Source of the DNA: a virus | Strand: one strand, 5' to 3' | IMG/VR virus record: IMGVR_UViG_3300006078_000016 | Location: 1 to 20,522 of that record | DNA: 20,522 bases | In this document: positions 7,575-15,004 of the stretch, one piece after another | How positions within the stretch are numbered: the stretch's first letter is position 1 | Layout: each line of letters opens with the position of its first letter | Notes under the pieces: generated by a model | Told to the model about the DNA's origin: nothing | Databases searched by the model: none | What the model saw: the letters and a program-made list of their open reading frames with translations, nothing else | Program-made: the position numbers and the translations under genes

Positions 7575-8368
7575 TACTTAAATACTGAGTATAGCTGTGC
7601 GAGCTGACCCATCTGACCTAAGGTTGACATACCAGGACTAGTTGAAATACCAGCATTACCAAGTAGACCAGAAGTGCCACCAATAGAACTCGTATATTGA
7701 TTAAGTCTGTTGTAAGGTAGGTTCTGTGAGAACTCGTGTTGTGCTTTAGCATCTTCAATTAGTGCTTGCTCTCTGCCTGACTGAACACCGCCAGATTCTC
7801 CTAATGCAGCATAAGGACTGAAGCCAGCATTAATAATACCACCTGTCTGACCTAATGTCTGTGACTGATGTTGCAGTCCTCTACCATAAGCATCACTATA
7901 GATACCAGCAGCTGCAGCATTAGCAGAATCAGCAGCACCTGCGATAGCAGTACCTTCTGCAATACCTTGACGACCACCACCATAACCACCTGACTGAATA
8001 GCTCCCTGACGTATTCCAGCAAGGGCTGGGTTAAGCTGACCATAAGCATCCTTAGCAGCCTGAGCAGCCATATCCCTAACATAAGGGTTCTTAGCCACAT
8101 CAACCACACTAGAGCCAGTACCATATTGATAGGCTGACAGTGCAGGGTTCATAACATTAGGTGCACCTTTAGTTGCCCAATCTCTAACACCTGCTTGTGC
8201 AGTCAGTTGGTCAGGACTGAATGATGCCTGAGTCTTACCACCATAATAGGAAGGACTGAATTTGTCGTAAATGCCTGAAGCCTCTTGGTATCCTTTTGTT
8301 ATATAGGGCTGTGCTCCAGCCCACGGCTCTGCTACTGTAGTCTCTGAACCACCACCACCCTTAGACAC
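7574..8368 (-). CDS. Gly/Ala-rich small internal virion (ejection) protein (264 aa)
   Basis: The product is rich in Gly, Ala, Ser and Tyr, with short helices. It begins MSKGGGGSETT and has a mid-region typical of small podovirus ejection-type proteins (KNPYVRDMAAQAAKDAYGQ, then SGGYGGGRQG). I do not know a named domain for it. It is the first of the four-gene ejection-like block (264, 549, 711, 1097 aa), as small-to-large order is common in that set. The start is GTG at 8368, not ATG: a perfect AAGGAGGT lies 5 bases upstream and the frame overlaps the HNH gene by 8 bases. The 3' end overlaps the next ATG by one base. Role as a packaged, ejected protein is inferred from composition and position. 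Confidence 0.55.
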   Translation of the reverse strand: MSKGGGGSETTVAEPWAGAQPYITKGYQEASGIYDKFSPSYYGGKTQASFSPDQLTAQAGVRDWATKGAPNVMNPALSAYQYGTGSSVVDVAKNPYVRDMAAQAAKDAYGQLNPALAGIRQGAIQSGGYGGGRQGIAEGTAIAGAADSANAAAAGIYSDAYGRGLQHQSQTLGQTGGIINAGFSPYAALGESGGVQSGREQALIEDAKAQHEFSQNLPYNRLNQYTSSIGGTSGLLGNAGISTSPGMSTLGQMGQLAQLYSVFK

Positions 8369-8804
8369 TAGACACCTCCTTCATACTCCACCCTTGTGTT
8401 GTTTTCTGAAATCCATTAATCATACCTTTTACACCTTGTAGTTTTAAATTATAGTTCTCACATAGAACATATCTGTTGCACCATACTAGTCCATACAGCT
8501 TATGCTGAAACCAGTGGCTATCATTATTAGCTGAGGGGTTGTTTTCTCCAACCATCTCAGGTCTTTTCTTACCATAACACCAGTGATTCTCACCACTGAA
8601 GTCTAATCCTTTTATATTTAAGAAGCCACTAGTAGCCTTTACATCACCTCTCATCTTATGTATGAGTAGATGGTCATCAGGGTGTAGCTCAATAAGATTA
8701 CCTATCTCATCTTTACCTCCCTCACTCTTAGGAACTATGTGGTGTATGTGTGAACCTTTACGTATAGACCCCCAGAAGTCTTTCCATACTGTGCGGTACT
8801 TCAT
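8361..8804 (-). CDS. HNH homing-type endonuclease (147 aa)
   Basis: This is a free-standing HNH nuclease. The motif is clear: H21-H22-I-V-P, G29-G30, N36-L-I-E-L, H45 and H49, which is the ββα-metal fold with a His-His pair, the bridging Asn and the metal-binding His residues. Residues 71-94 (GENHWCYGKK, then GENNPSANN) resemble a NUMOD3-type DNA-binding repeat of homing endonucleases. No CxxC zinc knuckle is present. It starts at an ATG that overlaps the upstream stop as ATGA, with AAGGAGAT upstream, and its last codons contain the ribosome-binding site of the next gene. Such enzymes usually nick or cut DNA at an uninterrupted allele and spread by repair; here it sits inside the late operon rather than in an intron I can see. 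Expression with late genes is expected. Confidence 0.88.
   Translation of the reverse strand: MKYRTVWKDFWGSIRKGSHIHHIVPKSEGGKDEIGNLIELHPDDHLLIHKMRGDVKATSGFLNIKGLDFSGENHWCYGKKRPEMVGENNPSANNDSHWFQHKLYGLVWCNRYVLCENYNLKLQGVKGMINGFQKTTQGWSMKEVSSV
8374..8381 (-). promoter_or_regulatory. Shine-Dalgarno deciding the GTG start of the 264-aa gene
   Basis: AAGGAGGT, 5 bases before the GTG at 8368-8366. It lies inside the last codons of the HNH endonuclease gene (Met-Lys-Glu-Val), so the endonuclease reading frame either carried this site or ends over an ancestral one. Confidence 0.85.
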
Positions 8805-9456: not shown

Positions 9457-11002
9457 CCTTACCTCTGTTTCCTGAAGTCTTCCAATGAATCTCTAGGTTA
9501 TCTAATGTCCAGCTATTGCTATCTTCTGACTCAACTTTAATACCAATATAATTACCAGTAGCTCTTACTGGAATCTCTGAGTGTGTACCTGGTGTAAAGA
9601 CATAAGGACCTTTCCAAGTAGTAGCTTCTTTGGGTATGAACTTGTGACCTACATAAAAGTTAACACTACCAGTACCCTCAATAATAGGTACAATCTTCTC
9701 TACTGATTTAGTGGATGATGTGCCTAATGCCATATCCTCTTTAGCAACCCAAGATTTAAAGCTAGTACCATCAAACTGATTAGTGCTTCCTTGGATATAA
9801 ATCTTAGAGTTAGTGGAATCTGCAAATAAAATATGCTGTCTAATAGGACTATCCCAAGGTGCTGTTGATGTTGCCCAAGTACCAGAGGAAGACCAAGCTG
9901 AACTTCCTGTAGTATCTACAGTACCCCAAGAGGCGTAACTGATGTGCGGTAAATCTCTCTTAGACCAAGTGTTGTTTCTCCAGTTCCATACGAATGCTTT
10001 ATCTGCAAATGCATCTGTACTATTATCAAGAGAAACAAAACAAATCCACATCTCGTTGTTCTTATAGTCAGGGGCTACGAATGTTCTTTTTCTGTAAGTA
10101 GGGTGTAGTGAGTCGAATAACTCATCTCTAATTTGTGTGTCTACAATAGATTGTCTAGCTTGACCATCGTGTGTATATACATCATCAATTCCAACTACAA
10201 AGTGACCACCTTCAAATGACTTAGCACACTCTCTGCTTAAGATTCCAGCATCGTTGAATAACTGTCTGAAGCCAAATATGGATTGACCACCTTCATAATT
10301 CATAGCCCATACTGAATCTTCTTTATAGATAATGTTTGTATCTTTAAGAGGAAGACAATCAATAACCCAACCATTAGATTGAGATAAGTCTACATAACCA
10401 GCATCCTTAGTAGCATCACTGGAGTCCCAAGTAGTAGGCACTGTGCCACCCTCTGCAGGGTGTGACCAGTGAACTCTGAAAGGATATCTAGTAGAGGATT
10501 CTGTCTTATCCAGTGCAACTAAGAATCTCTTAAAGGGTCTTATTACTTTAGCTGTGTGTCCTGATGTCCAGTTGCTAAGGTTCTGAAAATAAGTAGGAGA
10601 TTCACCTAACATCTGTGGTACATCTACTCCGTTATTAAGGATGGCAACACCGCCTAGTATGCCACCATTCCAGCCACCTTGTGCAGTGGCAGAATAATCA
10701 CCTCCTGTTGTTCTAGTAACATCAGTGTGTGTACTAGTTGAGCCTGTCTTATTAACCTTGTAAATCTTAGTCAGACTTGGGTAAAGCCAGTAGTCACTGG
10801 CAATAGTGTCGTGATACAGCAACCAATAAGGTGCACCACTTAGTGTATCAAATATCTGCTCGTGACCTAATACCTTCTTTGTCTTATCATTATCAAACTG
10901 TACGTTATTACCATCTGACCATACAGTAGGAGGTAGCTCATAAGAACTAATGTCCTTATTAATACCATTCATATTGAGTTGTGTTATCTGTGTTTGAGCC
11001 AT
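9449..11002 (-). CDS. Tail nozzle / portal-vertex stabilisation-type protein (517 aa)
   Basis: The N terminus (QLNMNGINKDISSYELPPTV, then WSDGNNVQF and KVLGHEQIF) follows the start typical of podovirus proteins that plug the tail tube, the group that includes T7 gp12 and P22 gp10-type tail proteins. The remainder is strand-rich with repeated Trp phrases (for example WLYPS, GGWNGGILG, FVWNWRNNTWSKRDLP), as expected of a β-propeller-like nozzle. Near residues 230-300, the DSVWAMNYEGG and YTHDGQARQSIVDTQIRDELF segments are also typical of this family. Length is within the usual 500-800 range, at the short end. Its ATG overlaps the upstream lipoprotein stop as TAATG without a clear ribosome-binding site. 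Role: closes the tail and retains DNA below the adaptor. Family by pattern only. Confidence 0.72.
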   Translation of the reverse strand: MAQTQITQLNMNGINKDISSYELPPTVWSDGNNVQFDNDKTKKVLGHEQIFDTLSGAPYWLLYHDTIASDYWLYPSLTKIYKVNKTGSTSTHTDVTRTTGGDYSATAQGGWNGGILGGVAILNNGVDVPQMLGESPTYFQNLSNWTSGHTAKVIRPFKRFLVALDKTESSTRYPFRVHWSHPAEGGTVPTTWDSSDATKDAGYVDLSQSNGWVIDCLPLKDTNIIYKEDSVWAMNYEGGQSIFGFRQLFNDAGILSRECAKSFEGGHFVVGIDDVYTHDGQARQSIVDTQIRDELFDSLHPTYRKRTFVAPDYKNNEMWICFVSLDNSTDAFADKAFVWNWRNNTWSKRDLPHISYASWGTVDTTGSSAWSSSGTWATSTAPWDSPIRQHILFADSTNSKIYIQGSTNQFDGTSFKSWVAKEDMALGTSSTKSVEKIVPIIEGTGSVNFYVGHKFIPKEATTWKGPYVFTPGTHSEIPVRATGNYIGIKVESEDSNSWTLDNLEIHWKTSGNRGKGV

Positions 11003-11355
11003 TATTGTTTGTATTTGTCCTTAGCTTTAGCATACCCTTGTCTTCTAGTTAACCAAGGTACTGCTATGTTAGTAACTAGCAGGAACGCTAGGAAGCCGTA
11101 TAACAGGTCTTTACCCCACTCCTCAGCTACGTATGCCACTGCTTGTTCTTTCGTCTCTATATCAGTAACCTCAGGCTTATCAGGCACTAGCTCATCATAC
11201 GCCATAGCAGTAGCTAATACACCGATACCTGCTATAGGTCCTGCTATCACATACGCCACCCCTGTAGTCGCTACAGACTTACCTGCATTCCTAAGCTCTA
11301 GTGAGGAACACCCACTAAAAAGAATAAGCAATAGTAAGATAGATAGTTTCTTCAT
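11002..11355 (-). CDS. Lipoprotein with C-terminal membrane anchor, candidate unimolecular spanin (117 aa)
   Basis: The first 16 residues form a lipoprotein signal: MKK, a Leu/Ile core, then the lipobox-like LFSGC with C16 and Ser at +2, consistent with outer-membrane sorting. Residues ~27-53 are Gly/Ala-rich and weakly hydrophobic. Residues ~83-102 form a clear membrane segment (LLYGFLAFLLVTNIAVPWL) followed by a basic tail (RRQGYAKAKDKYKQ), predicted to face the cytoplasm. An acylated N terminus plus an inner-membrane C terminus is the architecture of unimolecular spanins such as T1 gp11, which fuse the two membranes in the final lysis step. The linker is rather short for this, so it could instead be another envelope lipoprotein. 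Its ATG overlaps the stop of a 28-codon gene (ATGA), next to a 76-aa membrane protein. No endolysin is nearby. Confidence 0.72.
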   Translation of the reverse strand: MKKLSILLLLILFSGCSSLELRNAGKSVATTGVAYVIAGPIAGIGVLATAMAYDELVPDKPEVTDIETKEQAVAYVAEEWGKDLLYGFLAFLLVTNIAVPWLTRRQGYAKAKDKYKQ

Positions 11356-11438
11356 ATAATAGCCCAGTTAATTGGTAGAGTCCATACGTCATACAGGAAG
11401 AACCTGCTTGTGCCATTCGTTAGTTCTACCCATATCAC
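11352..11438 (-). CDS. 28-aa micro-gene locked between overlapping neighbours
   Basis: A 28-codon frame that fills the gap between the 76-aa membrane protein and the lipoprotein. It starts with GTG overlapping the upstream stop (GTGA at 11438-11435) and ends with TGA overlapping the lipoprotein start (ATGA at 11355-11352). Four-base overlaps at both ends of an otherwise empty 79-base gap are unlikely by chance and are the same junction types used by accepted genes in this operon. The peptide begins MIWVELTNGTSRFF and ends DVWTLPINWAII; it is aromatic and hydrophobic, with Trp at 3, 19 and 25. The phrase ELTNG followed by W-x5-W resembles the 24-aa frame at 11730-11656. No function is known to me; membrane association is possible. 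Upstream, AGAGATAAG offers only a weak ribosome-binding site, so coupling is expected. Confidence 0.62.
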   Translation of the reverse strand: MIWVELTNGTSRFFLYDVWTLPINWAII

Positions 11439-11665
11439 TTATCTCTATCTCTTAGGATAGTATATATCTGGTCTAACATCTTATCTATCTTATCTATCTG
11501 ATGTGAGTATTCCTCTCTATGTACAAACTCTTTATGTAGATTAATCTGACAAGTAGTGATTCTACTCTCCATATCCTTAATAGTCTTGCTAGTAGATTTC
11601 AACACAGCTATTAAGCCCGTTGAAATAACACTGACCAGTGCCAGTACAACATCGCTTAATTCCAT
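11435..11665 (-). CDS. Small single-TM coiled-coil protein, possible lysis-associated membrane protein (76 aa)
   Basis: Residues ~4-23 (SDVVLALVSVISTGLIAVLK) form one membrane segment, and residues ~27-75 form a charged heptad-like helix (for example YSHQIDKIDKMLDQIYTIL), a probable coiled coil. The N terminus is acidic and Lys residues follow the membrane segment, so the positive-inside rule predicts N-out/C-in, with the coiled coil in the cytoplasm. That argues against a classical inner-membrane spanin and fits better with small holin-associated or other phage membrane proteins. The ATG at 11665 has AAAGGA five bases upstream and overlaps the 24-aa frame by 10 bases. It lies immediately before the micro-gene and the spanin-like lipoprotein, so a role in lysis or membrane disruption is reasonable but unproven. 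Confidence 0.66.
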   Translation of the reverse strand: MELSDVVLALVSVISTGLIAVLKSTSKTIKDMESRITTCQINLHKEFVHREEYSHQIDKIDKMLDQIYTILRDRDK

Positions 11666-11730
11666 CTAAATCCTTTATACCACTCGAAATTAGGTTGGTA
11701 AGTTTCTTCAACACCATTTGACAATTCCAT
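11656..11730 (-). CDS. 24-aa micro-gene ahead of the membrane protein
   Basis: A 24-codon frame starting at ATG 11730-11728, with AGGA seven bases upstream, and ending with TAA at 11658-11656, so it overlaps the next ATG by 10 bases. An ATG four bases upstream gives only an 8-codon frame and sits too close to the ribosome-binding site. The peptide begins MELSNGVEETYQ and ends FEWYKGFRWN. The ELSNG start, the spacing of the two Trp residues (W-x5-W) and the position beside the 76-aa gene match the 28-aa frame at 11438-11352. It is the only frame that accounts for the gap between the hairpin and the 76-aa gene. Being so short, it could be a leader peptide for translational coupling. Function unknown. 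Confidence 0.5.
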   Translation of the reverse strand: MELSNGVEETYQPNFEWYKGFRWN

Positions 11731-12562: not shown

Positions 12563-15004
12563 TTAAACACCATTAAAGGCGATTATCTGTACTGCAAAAT
12601 TCTTTGTGTAACCAGACCTATTTTTAACAATTACATTATTGTTATAACCACTAATGTAAACACACACTTTGCCATCTGTGTCTGAATTTGCAAAGAAGCC
12701 TTTAGGGTCTGAAAGTTCAGTAGTTGACCCTGCAGGACTATAATTACCGTGGAATAAAGCACCTGCATACTGATTACCTGTAGCACTTTGTTGTATTGCA
12801 ATCAAAGAACCTGTACCTTCGACTGCAATAGTAGTAGATGAATCATCTGCCAAAGAGAAAGTGCCTGGGTGCATAATATTCATACACACACCAGCTGTAG
12901 AGGACTCTTTAAACCTAGCTGTTTTTGTAGAGGCATCGCCATAATAAACATTACCAATATTCAACTGGTTATTGCCAGTAGCACTTGGGGCATCTACGTT
13001 GTAACCAATGATGATGTTGTCGCTACCTGTAGTAATATTGTCACCAGCTTGATAGCCTAATACTGAATTACGCATTCCTGTAGTGTTAGCTTCTAAAGCA
13101 CTCATACCAAGTGCTGTATTGTACTGACCTGTGGTGTTACCGTATAAAGCTGAATAACCAAAAGCAGCATTCCTATCAGCAGTGCTATTGTAATACATAG
13201 CCCTTCTACCGACTGCTGTGTTGTAATTACCTGTAGTGTTAGTGACTAGGGCTTCATCACCAACTGCGACATTATAACTGGCTGTAGTGTTAGACCTTAA
13301 AGCCTTATAACCAGAAGCTGTATTGTTAGAGCCTGTGGTATTACTATACATAGACCAATAACCACTAGCTGTGTTGTTAGAGCCTGTTGTGTTAGCTCTT
13401 AAAGATTCGTGACCCATACCTGTGTTAGCGGATGCTGTCGTATTATCACCCAAGGTTCTAGTACCTATGGCTATATTGCCACCACCTGTTGTATTATCAT
13501 ATAAGGATTGATGACCAATAGCTACATTATCACCTGCTGTAGTATTACTATAAAGAGATTGATAGCCACTAGCTACGTTCTGAGAGCCTGTGGTGTTAGC
13601 CTGTAAGGCACTATACCCTACAGCAGTATTATAATAAGCAGTAGTGTTGTTAATTAAAGCACCATTACCAACAGCAGTATTTTCATTACCTGAAGTGTTA
13701 TAGTGAAGAGCGTATCTACCTAGAGCGACATTATAATCACCAACAGTATTGCTCTTTAAGGCTACATAACCATAAGCTGTATTCCTCTTACCAGTAGTAT
13801 TGCTATACATAGCCTGATAACCAGAAGCTGTGTTTTCAGTACCTGTGGTGTTTAAGTTTAAAGCACTCCTACCTACTGCTGTATTAAAAGAAGCTGTGGT
13901 GTTTGTTGCTAGGGCGTTGTCACCAAAAGCGACATTATAACTACCTGTAGTATTACCATACATAGCATCATAACCAACAGCAGTATTCCTACCACCTGTG
14001 GTATTAGTTTTAAGAGACGTAACGCCTAAGGCTGTGTTGTTAGCACCTGTGGTGTTATATCTTAGAGACTCATTACCCACTGCCGTATTATAAGAAGCAG
14101 TAGTATTGTTATTTAATGTTCTTGTTCCTAATCCTGTATTGTAAGCACCAGTAGTATTAGCATATAAAGCATAATAACCAGTAGCTACATTACTGGTTGC
14201 TGTGGTGTTAGAGAATAAAGCATTCTGCCCTAAACCAGTGTTGTAACTAGCCGTGGTGTTGTAGTAAAGTGCTTGATTACCTAAAGCGGTATTATAATTA
14301 CCTGTGGTGTTTGTTAATAGTGAATCAGAACCCATAGCAACATTACTAACACCTGTGGTGTTTGCCTTTAATGAGTGTCTGCCAGAAGCAGTATTATGAT
14401 TACCTGTAGTATTGCTATAAAGAGATTGATAGCCACTAGCTACGTTCTGAGAGCCGGTGGTGTTACTGAATAAAGCTTCTGTGCCCAAAGCGGTATTATA
14501 TGAGCCTGTAGTGTTATATATAAGTGCTTCTCTACCTATAGCAACATTATTGTTACCAGTAGTATTGAAATATAAAGACTGATGCCCACTAGCAGTATTC
14601 CTATAACCTGTAGTATTACTGTATAAGGCTCTCCTGCCGACGGCTATATTTTGATAACCGCTAGTAACAGCAGTCAAAGCATTATCACCAAGTCCTACAT
14701 TGTAATCACCCGTAGTAATACTATCTACAGCACCTGAGCCTAGTCCGATGTTAGAGGTGGCAGTTGCTGTCCAAGGGATTGATGCTTGTTTACTATCAAG
14801 CTGTGTTTGGATAGCTGACGTTACACCATCTACATAATTAAGTTCTTCATCTGTAGCGTTAACTGCTGCATTAATATTTGGGAATGTATTCTTTAGGGTG
14901 GTCTTGATGCCTCTAATGTGGTCATCACCTTCCGATACGTTATCTGTTGTTGTTGGGTTCGCTGAGTTTAGCGAGTTAATATAGTTGAAACTTTCTAAGC
15001 TCAT
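12563..15004 (-). CDS. Tail fibre with 34 tandem 17-residue YadA-head-like repeats (813 aa)
   Basis: Residues 1-77 form an N-terminal attachment region of a type common in phage fibres (GDDHIRGIKTTLKNTFPNIN, then a TDEELNYVDGVTSAIQTQLD helix). Residues 83-660 are 34 tandem 17-residue units of the form (x)2-N-(T/V)-A-x-G-x-x-(A/S)-L-x-x-N-T-T-(G/A), similar to the collagen-binding head of YadA-type trimeric adhesins and many phage fibres; such repeats should stack as a trimeric left-handed β-roll shaft. Residues 661-690 close the roll (IIIGYNV, NNQLNIGNVYYGD), and ~690-813 form a β-rich tip (for example KGFFANSDTDGKVCVYISGY, FAVQIIAFNGV) that would bind the host. No intramolecular chaperone motif or depolymerase catalytic site is visible. 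ATG has AGGAG seven bases upstream. The gene is directly upstream of three small proteins and downstream of the 164-aa structural gene. Confidence 0.85.
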   Translation of the reverse strand: MSLESFNYINSLNSANPTTTDNVSEGDDHIRGIKTTLKNTFPNINAAVNATDEELNYVDGVTSAIQTQLDSKQASIPWTATATSNIGLGSGAVDSITTGDYNVGLGDNALTAVTSGYQNIAVGRRALYSNTTGYRNTASGHQSLYFNTTGNNNVAIGREALIYNTTGSYNTALGTEALFSNTTGSQNVASGYQSLYSNTTGNHNTASGRHSLKANTTGVSNVAMGSDSLLTNTTGNYNTALGNQALYYNTTASYNTGLGQNALFSNTTATSNVATGYYALYANTTGAYNTGLGTRTLNNNTTASYNTAVGNESLRYNTTGANNTALGVTSLKTNTTGGRNTAVGYDAMYGNTTGSYNVAFGDNALATNTTASFNTAVGRSALNLNTTGTENTASGYQAMYSNTTGKRNTAYGYVALKSNTVGDYNVALGRYALHYNTSGNENTAVGNGALINNTTAYYNTAVGYSALQANTTGSQNVASGYQSLYSNTTAGDNVAIGHQSLYDNTTGGGNIAIGTRTLGDNTTASANTGMGHESLRANTTGSNNTASGYWSMYSNTTGSNNTASGYKALRSNTTASYNVAVGDEALVTNTTGNYNTAVGRRAMYYNSTADRNAAFGYSALYGNTTGQYNTALGMSALEANTTGMRNSVLGYQAGDNITTGSDNIIIGYNVDAPSATGNNQLNIGNVYYGDASTKTARFKESSTAGVCMNIMHPGTFSLADDSSTTIAVEGTGSLIAIQQSATGNQYAGALFHGNYSPAGSTTELSDPKGFFANSDTDGKVCVYISGYNNNVIVKNRSGYTKNFAVQIIAFNGV
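13548..13588 (-). repeat. 41-base identical segment, copy A, inside fibre repeat
   Basis: This stretch, encoding GSQNVASGYQSLYS, is identical to 14415-14455. The copies are 867 bases apart, exactly 17 repeat units. Most other units differ at third positions, so this pair points to recent recombination within the array. Confidence 0.85.
14415..14455 (-). repeat. 41-base identical segment, copy B, inside fibre repeat
   Basis: Identical to 13548-13588, 867 bases away (17 x 51). It encodes the same GSQNVASGYQSLYS phrase in unit register. Confidence 0.85.

Follow-up and report, generated by a model that had tools for sequence, protein, structure and literature searches.

A conserved 28-codon gene between a small membrane protein gene and a lipoprotein gene in a marine podovirus

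The DNA analysed here, referred to as the window, spans a complete virus record (20,522 bases) from a marine podovirus and has its late genes on the minus strand. Their arrangement, as read from gene order and size, would be portal, scaffold, capsid, tail proteins, fibre, small genes, a gp56-like virion protein and internal virion proteins, the exception being the LUZ24-gp56-like protein, which was recognised by its sequence (at most 39% identical to that of Pseudomonas podophages). Also on the minus strand, an 813-aa protein (12563-15004) consists largely of adhesin-head-like NTTG..NTA.G..AL repeats and is probably a fibre, and an HNH homing-type endonuclease (8361-8804; PF01844, E 1.6e-8, with a weak NUMOD3 match) lies between late genes.

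Three minus-strand genes are interlocked at the locus under study. The first encodes a 76-aa protein (11435-11665) with one N-terminal transmembrane segment, predicted from hydropathy, followed by a coiled coil; the second is a 28-codon microprotein gene (11352-11438; VIWVELTNGTSRFFLYDVWTLPINWAII) with a GTG start and a TGA stop, which reads on the coding strand as GTG (11438) ATA TGG ... ATT ATA TGA (11352); and the third encodes a 117-aa lipoprotein-like protein (11002-11355) with an N-terminal signal ending in FSGC, a C-terminal transmembrane segment and a basic tail. At its start, the short frame shares four bases with the end of the 76-aa gene (GTGA, 11435-11438, combining GTG and TGA), and at its end four with the start of the lipoprotein gene (ATGA, 11352-11355, combining ATG and TGA), leaving a gap of 79 bases (11356-11434) between the two larger genes. 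The initial annotation, which had described these neighbours and both overlaps as we find them, had also called this the sole frame across the gap; that holds for the coding strand, but an antisense frame is open there too. It had further considered that a random gap would rarely give a full-length frame with both overlaps. The double overlap is the rarer element; of dinucleotide shuffles of the gap, with the junctions fixed, 18% keep the frame open. The open frame on its own is therefore weak evidence, and the sequence alone is no proof of a gene. In all loci fetched, most of them chosen for carrying the 28-residue family or its neighbours, seven distinct peptides of 15-36 codons are both coupled to an upstream gene and joined by a 4-base overlap to a frame of at least 80 codons, and six of them belong to the 28-residue family.

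It is the comparison with other contigs, and not the open frame, that decides whether the gene is real. Intact copies are present in 26 loci, window included, and comprise 22 distinct 84-base sequences; most were found by peptide-alignment searches, and nine loci that carry the same peptide (L001, L003, L005, L010, L011, L014, L015, L016 and L021) had first been fetched with the lipoprotein alone. The start codon (GTG in 13 sequences, ATG in 9) always occupies the same codon position. Stops break both other sense frames in 22/22 sequences, and the microprotein frame has neither a stop nor an indel in any of the 22, frameshifts and stops in the homologous gaps having been named beforehand as the result that would speak against a gene. 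Between the window and most distant relatives, pS is about 0.6-1.0 and pN about 0.18-0.33, with a lower pS (0.4-0.5) against L029, L031 and L035, and the pooled pN/pS of the frame is 0.34. The comparison of synonymous and non-synonymous change that had been proposed thus yields saturated synonymous sites and a conserved protein, that is, an open frame under purifying selection across diverged homologues: purifying selection acts on the 28-residue peptide. Because intact homologues are present in many other contigs, the 28-codon frame is almost certainly a real gene, as the initial annotation had supposed. The probability that it is a chance open frame without function, a reading to which its shortness and the shuffled gaps that stay open would lend themselves, is negligible in view of the intact frame in 22 strongly diverged sequences from several gene contexts. 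Of two further matches, one in a bacterial genome (L087, labelled as a Neomarinimicrobiota bin) lies at a contig edge with the same lipoprotein gene and is probably phage, and one pattern match (L088) is antisense to a long gene and was rejected as chance.

Gene callers are thought to miss tiny phage genes systematically, and a phage gene of 28 codons usually escapes notice on account of its length. The family core is W-x-x-L...R-x-x-L-[FY]-D-[PV]-W-x-x-P-x-N, and the invariant residues include W3, L6, R12, L15, D17, W19, P22 and N24; in a fuller description, the N-terminal segment is W-x-x-L-x-[ND]-G-x-x-R, after which come L-F-D-P-W-x-L-P-x-N-[WY] and an end that is hydrophobic. The best 19-residue mean hydropathy of the window peptide is 0.75, too low for a transmembrane segment, and the peptide accordingly does not have the hydrophobic segment that characterises transmembrane pinholins and antiholins. 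No match to the 28-residue peptide was found in Pfam or NCBIfam, nor in tblastn searches of the 28-residue type (hereafter A), the A' type and the B type (one of the alternative peptides described below) against 50,697 phage records; NCBIfam likewise returned nothing for the B and C peptides. The sole PHROG match (PHROGs v4) is a marginal one to phrog_17061, a profile of unknown function whose 63 positions are more than twice the peptide length, residues 1-23 aligning with positions 7-29 (E 0.0078); a peptide of the type in L056 aligns with the same positions (E 0.048). Membership in phrog_17061 was rejected given that E value, the coverage of 23/63 positions and the fact that the model also matches in 6/14 unrelated control genomes, and its members, sought in eight named phage records, were found in none of them. 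The family was likewise not found in the literature searched; published small-protein catalogues (e.g., PMC11364881) might include it without a name. The gene can thus be called undescribed, as anticipated, within the collections searched, and these results support an undescribed family of a known kind, the tiny phage genes.

One feature of the alignment could suggest an RNA or DNA element rather than a peptide, namely that codon 17 is GAC in 22/22 sequences, though GAT is the commoner Asp codon, and that codon 18 is CCT in all 19 sequences with Pro there. The invariant GAC is explained by avoidance of GATC: before C, these phages use GAC 173 times and GAT 8 times. Moreover, the consensus fold of the microprotein gene reaches -2.5 kcal/mol with no covariation, an Rfam search of it gave no match, and the codon-position pattern of change effectively refutes this very improbable reading. 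The avoidance extends to other 4-base palindromes. Across the window (1-20522), GATC is observed 0 times (58 expected), CATG 0 (54), GCGC 0 (12), CGCG 0 (4), GGCC 1 (17) and CCGG 1 (8). Most relatives purge GATC too, and the metagenomic podophage Lau218 purges instead GTAC (0 of 43) and CTAG (1 of 62). Restriction-site avoidance is strong and lineage-specific, which suggests that these phages face restriction.

The position of the gene relative to its neighbours is also maintained. In the relatives, the upstream junction is a GTGA or ATGA overlap, a TAATG or TAGTG overlap, or a TAA directly adjacent to an NTG, and wherever the upstream gene is readable the microprotein starts no more than 3 bases from its stop, so that the microprotein is probably translated by ribosomes that re-initiate on leaving the upstream gene. 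Many relatives keep the downstream ATGA overlap; the others have a short spacer in its place, which in several of them comes with a ribosome-binding site. Such an arrangement raises the question of whether the translation of the short frame merely sets the lipoprotein yield, the peptide itself being irrelevant. The window and several relatives have overlaps at both ends of the frame, and no strong ribosome-binding site is seen before the lipoprotein where the overlap is present; both observations fit a translational spacer or coupler of this kind. Nonetheless, amino acids are conserved where synonymous sites are saturated, the same peptide is kept in relatives with a spacer after it, and the downstream genes in L056, L060 and L066 are unrelated, all of which makes a pure coupler improbable. 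The substitution pattern, in short, disfavours the coupler, RNA and chance readings alike.

The neighbours give some indication of the function, for which confidence is moderate at best. The 117-aa protein has a lipobox (FSGC near residue 16; LTGC or LSSC in relatives) and a predicted transmembrane segment near residues 84-102, the two features that define a unimolecular spanin of the T1 gp11 type (PMC6139136), but differs from these proteins in an extra central hydrophobic stretch and does not strongly match any spanin family in sequence. It matches phrog_19883, of unknown function, at E 2e-58, and a spanin profile weakly (E 0.012), and is 72% identical to its homologue in Lau218. The earlier label 'spanin-like' is therefore borne out in layout, as lipoprotein signal and C-terminal transmembrane segment are present, but stays at the level of plausible. 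The 76-aa protein gave weak family matches only in profile searches. Just upstream, a second tiny frame of 24 aa (11656-11730, minus strand; MELSNGVEETYQPNFEWYKGFRWN) shares 10 bases with the beginning of the 76-aa gene, and L044 has a related copy. The first bases of this frame are similar to those with which the 76-aa gene itself starts, which has the look of a recombination product. The frame was considered as a paralogue of the 28-aa peptide (ELSNG against WVELTNG) and rejected, its start matching that of the 76-aa gene in relatives.

Across the relatives, the upstream partners belong to several sequence families (76-aa, 70-aa, 83-84-aa, 122-aa in Lau218, and XhlA-like types of 69-72 aa), most of them small with a predicted transmembrane segment and a coiled coil; a 72-aa protein lies directly upstream in L030 and a basic 51-aa protein in L060. 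The downstream genes encode spanin-like lipoproteins, a basic protein of 40-44 aa, or a multi-transmembrane protein of 136-144 aa with weak holin-like matches. The short basic gene beside the slot is itself conserved (MARKG..RGKNGQYVKETVLNKIKYFCN...IEKWLK; L041 near 4000, L044, L046, L064:5096-5230 and L067:103-225). In L066, the companion lipoprotein matches an Rz-like spanin PHROG (E 1.5e-8) and the upstream protein a hemolysin/XhlA PHROG (E 2e-5). From these varied families it follows that the peptide moves between gene backgrounds, yet stays within one kind of cassette.

Our tentative preference, to which we would give somewhat less than an even chance, is an accessory microprotein of a putative late lysis or envelope cassette that acts with the upstream membrane protein. 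Ribosomes ending the membrane/coiled-coil gene would start again at the NTG that overlaps or adjoins its stop, translate the 28 codons and be handed over to the lipoprotein gene through the ATGA overlap, and the three products would in this way be made together and in ratio. The peptide, whose W-x-x-L-x-[ND]-G-x-x-R segment may form a short beta hairpin-like structure, would sit at the inner membrane surface, bind the membrane/coiled-coil protein or a different member of the cassette (e.g., the 3-TM holin-like protein or the spanin-like lipoprotein), and adjust late envelope disruption or the timing of lysis. This proposal draws its weight from the neighbours, whose lysis labels are putative and come from weak profile matches: in most contexts, and despite the differing families, the peptide directly follows a small membrane or coiled-coil protein and precedes a lipoprotein or the 136-144-aa multi-transmembrane protein. 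The D-x-W peptides exchanged behind one upstream gene family, described below, speak for it as well. Against it stand the hydropathy of the peptide, too low for a transmembrane segment, the basic 51-aa protein upstream in L060 and the absence of any peptide from the close relatives L004, L007, L008, L012 and L013, which indicates that the peptide is not essential to the cassette. The likeness to XhlA/holin/spanin lysis cassettes lies in the neighbours (a small transmembrane/coiled-coil protein, a lipoprotein with a C-terminal transmembrane segment and, in some relatives, a holin-like multi-transmembrane protein), the spanin-like lipoprotein and weak holin/XhlA profile matches being the sole signs of lysis adjacency; the difference is that the search of the surroundings of the cassette identified neither an endolysin nor a proven holin. 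We know of no lysis cassette with a conserved 28-residue D-x-W peptide between such genes.

The slot itself accommodates other tiny peptides. Close relatives have there, in place of the 28-residue type, peptides of 20 aa (...CIGDCWILFPYLQCA), 23 aa (...IADCWLFYPYLLCS) or 25 aa (...LYDPWVLALGWSII), all with D-x-W, and in relatives whose 76-aa genes are 79-91% identical the peptide is instead of the B type (MTMPLCIGDCWILFPYLQCA and the like, 21 loci) or the C type (MIPIYEIVLVADCWLFYPYLLCS and the like), so that one upstream gene family precedes A, B or C type peptides; L024 has MWWTAGAYVPMLYDPWVLALGWSII in the same slot. Considering all loci fetched, which were partly gathered by A and B searches and hence bias the ratio, 94 distinct coupled frames of 15-36 codons are found, with D-x-W in 34, all of A, B, C or L024 type, and in 0/60 of the remainder; the C and L024 types were never query sequences, the L024 peptide being picked out by the motif itself. 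The B and C types are more hydrophobic than A (whole-peptide mean hydropathy 1.1 to 1.6). An hhalign profile comparison of A with B/C found no similarity and lends no support to a single family, what they share being D-x-W and the slot; the cautious reading of this likeness is shared function or convergence.

Exchange and loss are also what an accessory gene would show, and the lysis reading has its main rival in an accessory function directed against the host, to which we would give a somewhat lower chance. The gene would then be moron-like: its tiny product would inhibit some host function or defence (e.g., restriction or phage exclusion), and the gene would merely occupy a permissive position in the late operon and be translated along with its neighbours. 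T4 Stp, a tiny anti-restriction peptide of 26 residues, is similar in size alone, with no recognised sequence resemblance and a different gene setting. In keeping with such a role, slot peptides may be present, absent or exchanged for unrelated tiny genes, the palindrome avoidance suggests restriction pressure, and in the phage contig L066 the peptide gene is directly followed by dissimilatory sulfite reductase alpha, an accessory metabolic gene split there in two frames (L066:324-1627). The record of Lau218 includes a dissimilatory sulfite reductase gene as well, and the presence of these genes in two relatives points to sulfur-oxidising hosts. However, small membrane/coiled-coil and lipoprotein genes are the constant company of the peptide, the late structural region is an unusual place for early-acting defence inhibitors, and D-x-W is common to otherwise different slot peptides.

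A bolder extension of the lysis reading, which we hold to be doubtful, is that the slot houses interchangeable micro-lysis factors of at least two sequence-unrelated types, of 18-28 residues, that would have converged on a D-x-W core and bind the same kind of membrane/coiled-coil partner. If true, few dedicated lysis regulators known would be smaller, and the slot would be the phage equivalent of a recognition interface at which alleles are swapped. In any case, a single frame spotted by the eye of a reader has led to an undescribed peptide family in several kinds of marine phage genomes, and to a second type of tiny peptide in the same slot. Peptides such as FFLFDPWTLPINW are the mass-spectrometry signature to be expected from translation of the 28-residue family, and coupled NTG starts after small membrane/coiled-coil genes provide a rule for finding more. 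A fixed slot with swappable peptides, finally, poses a question that can be addressed experimentally: what does the D-x-W peptide bind?
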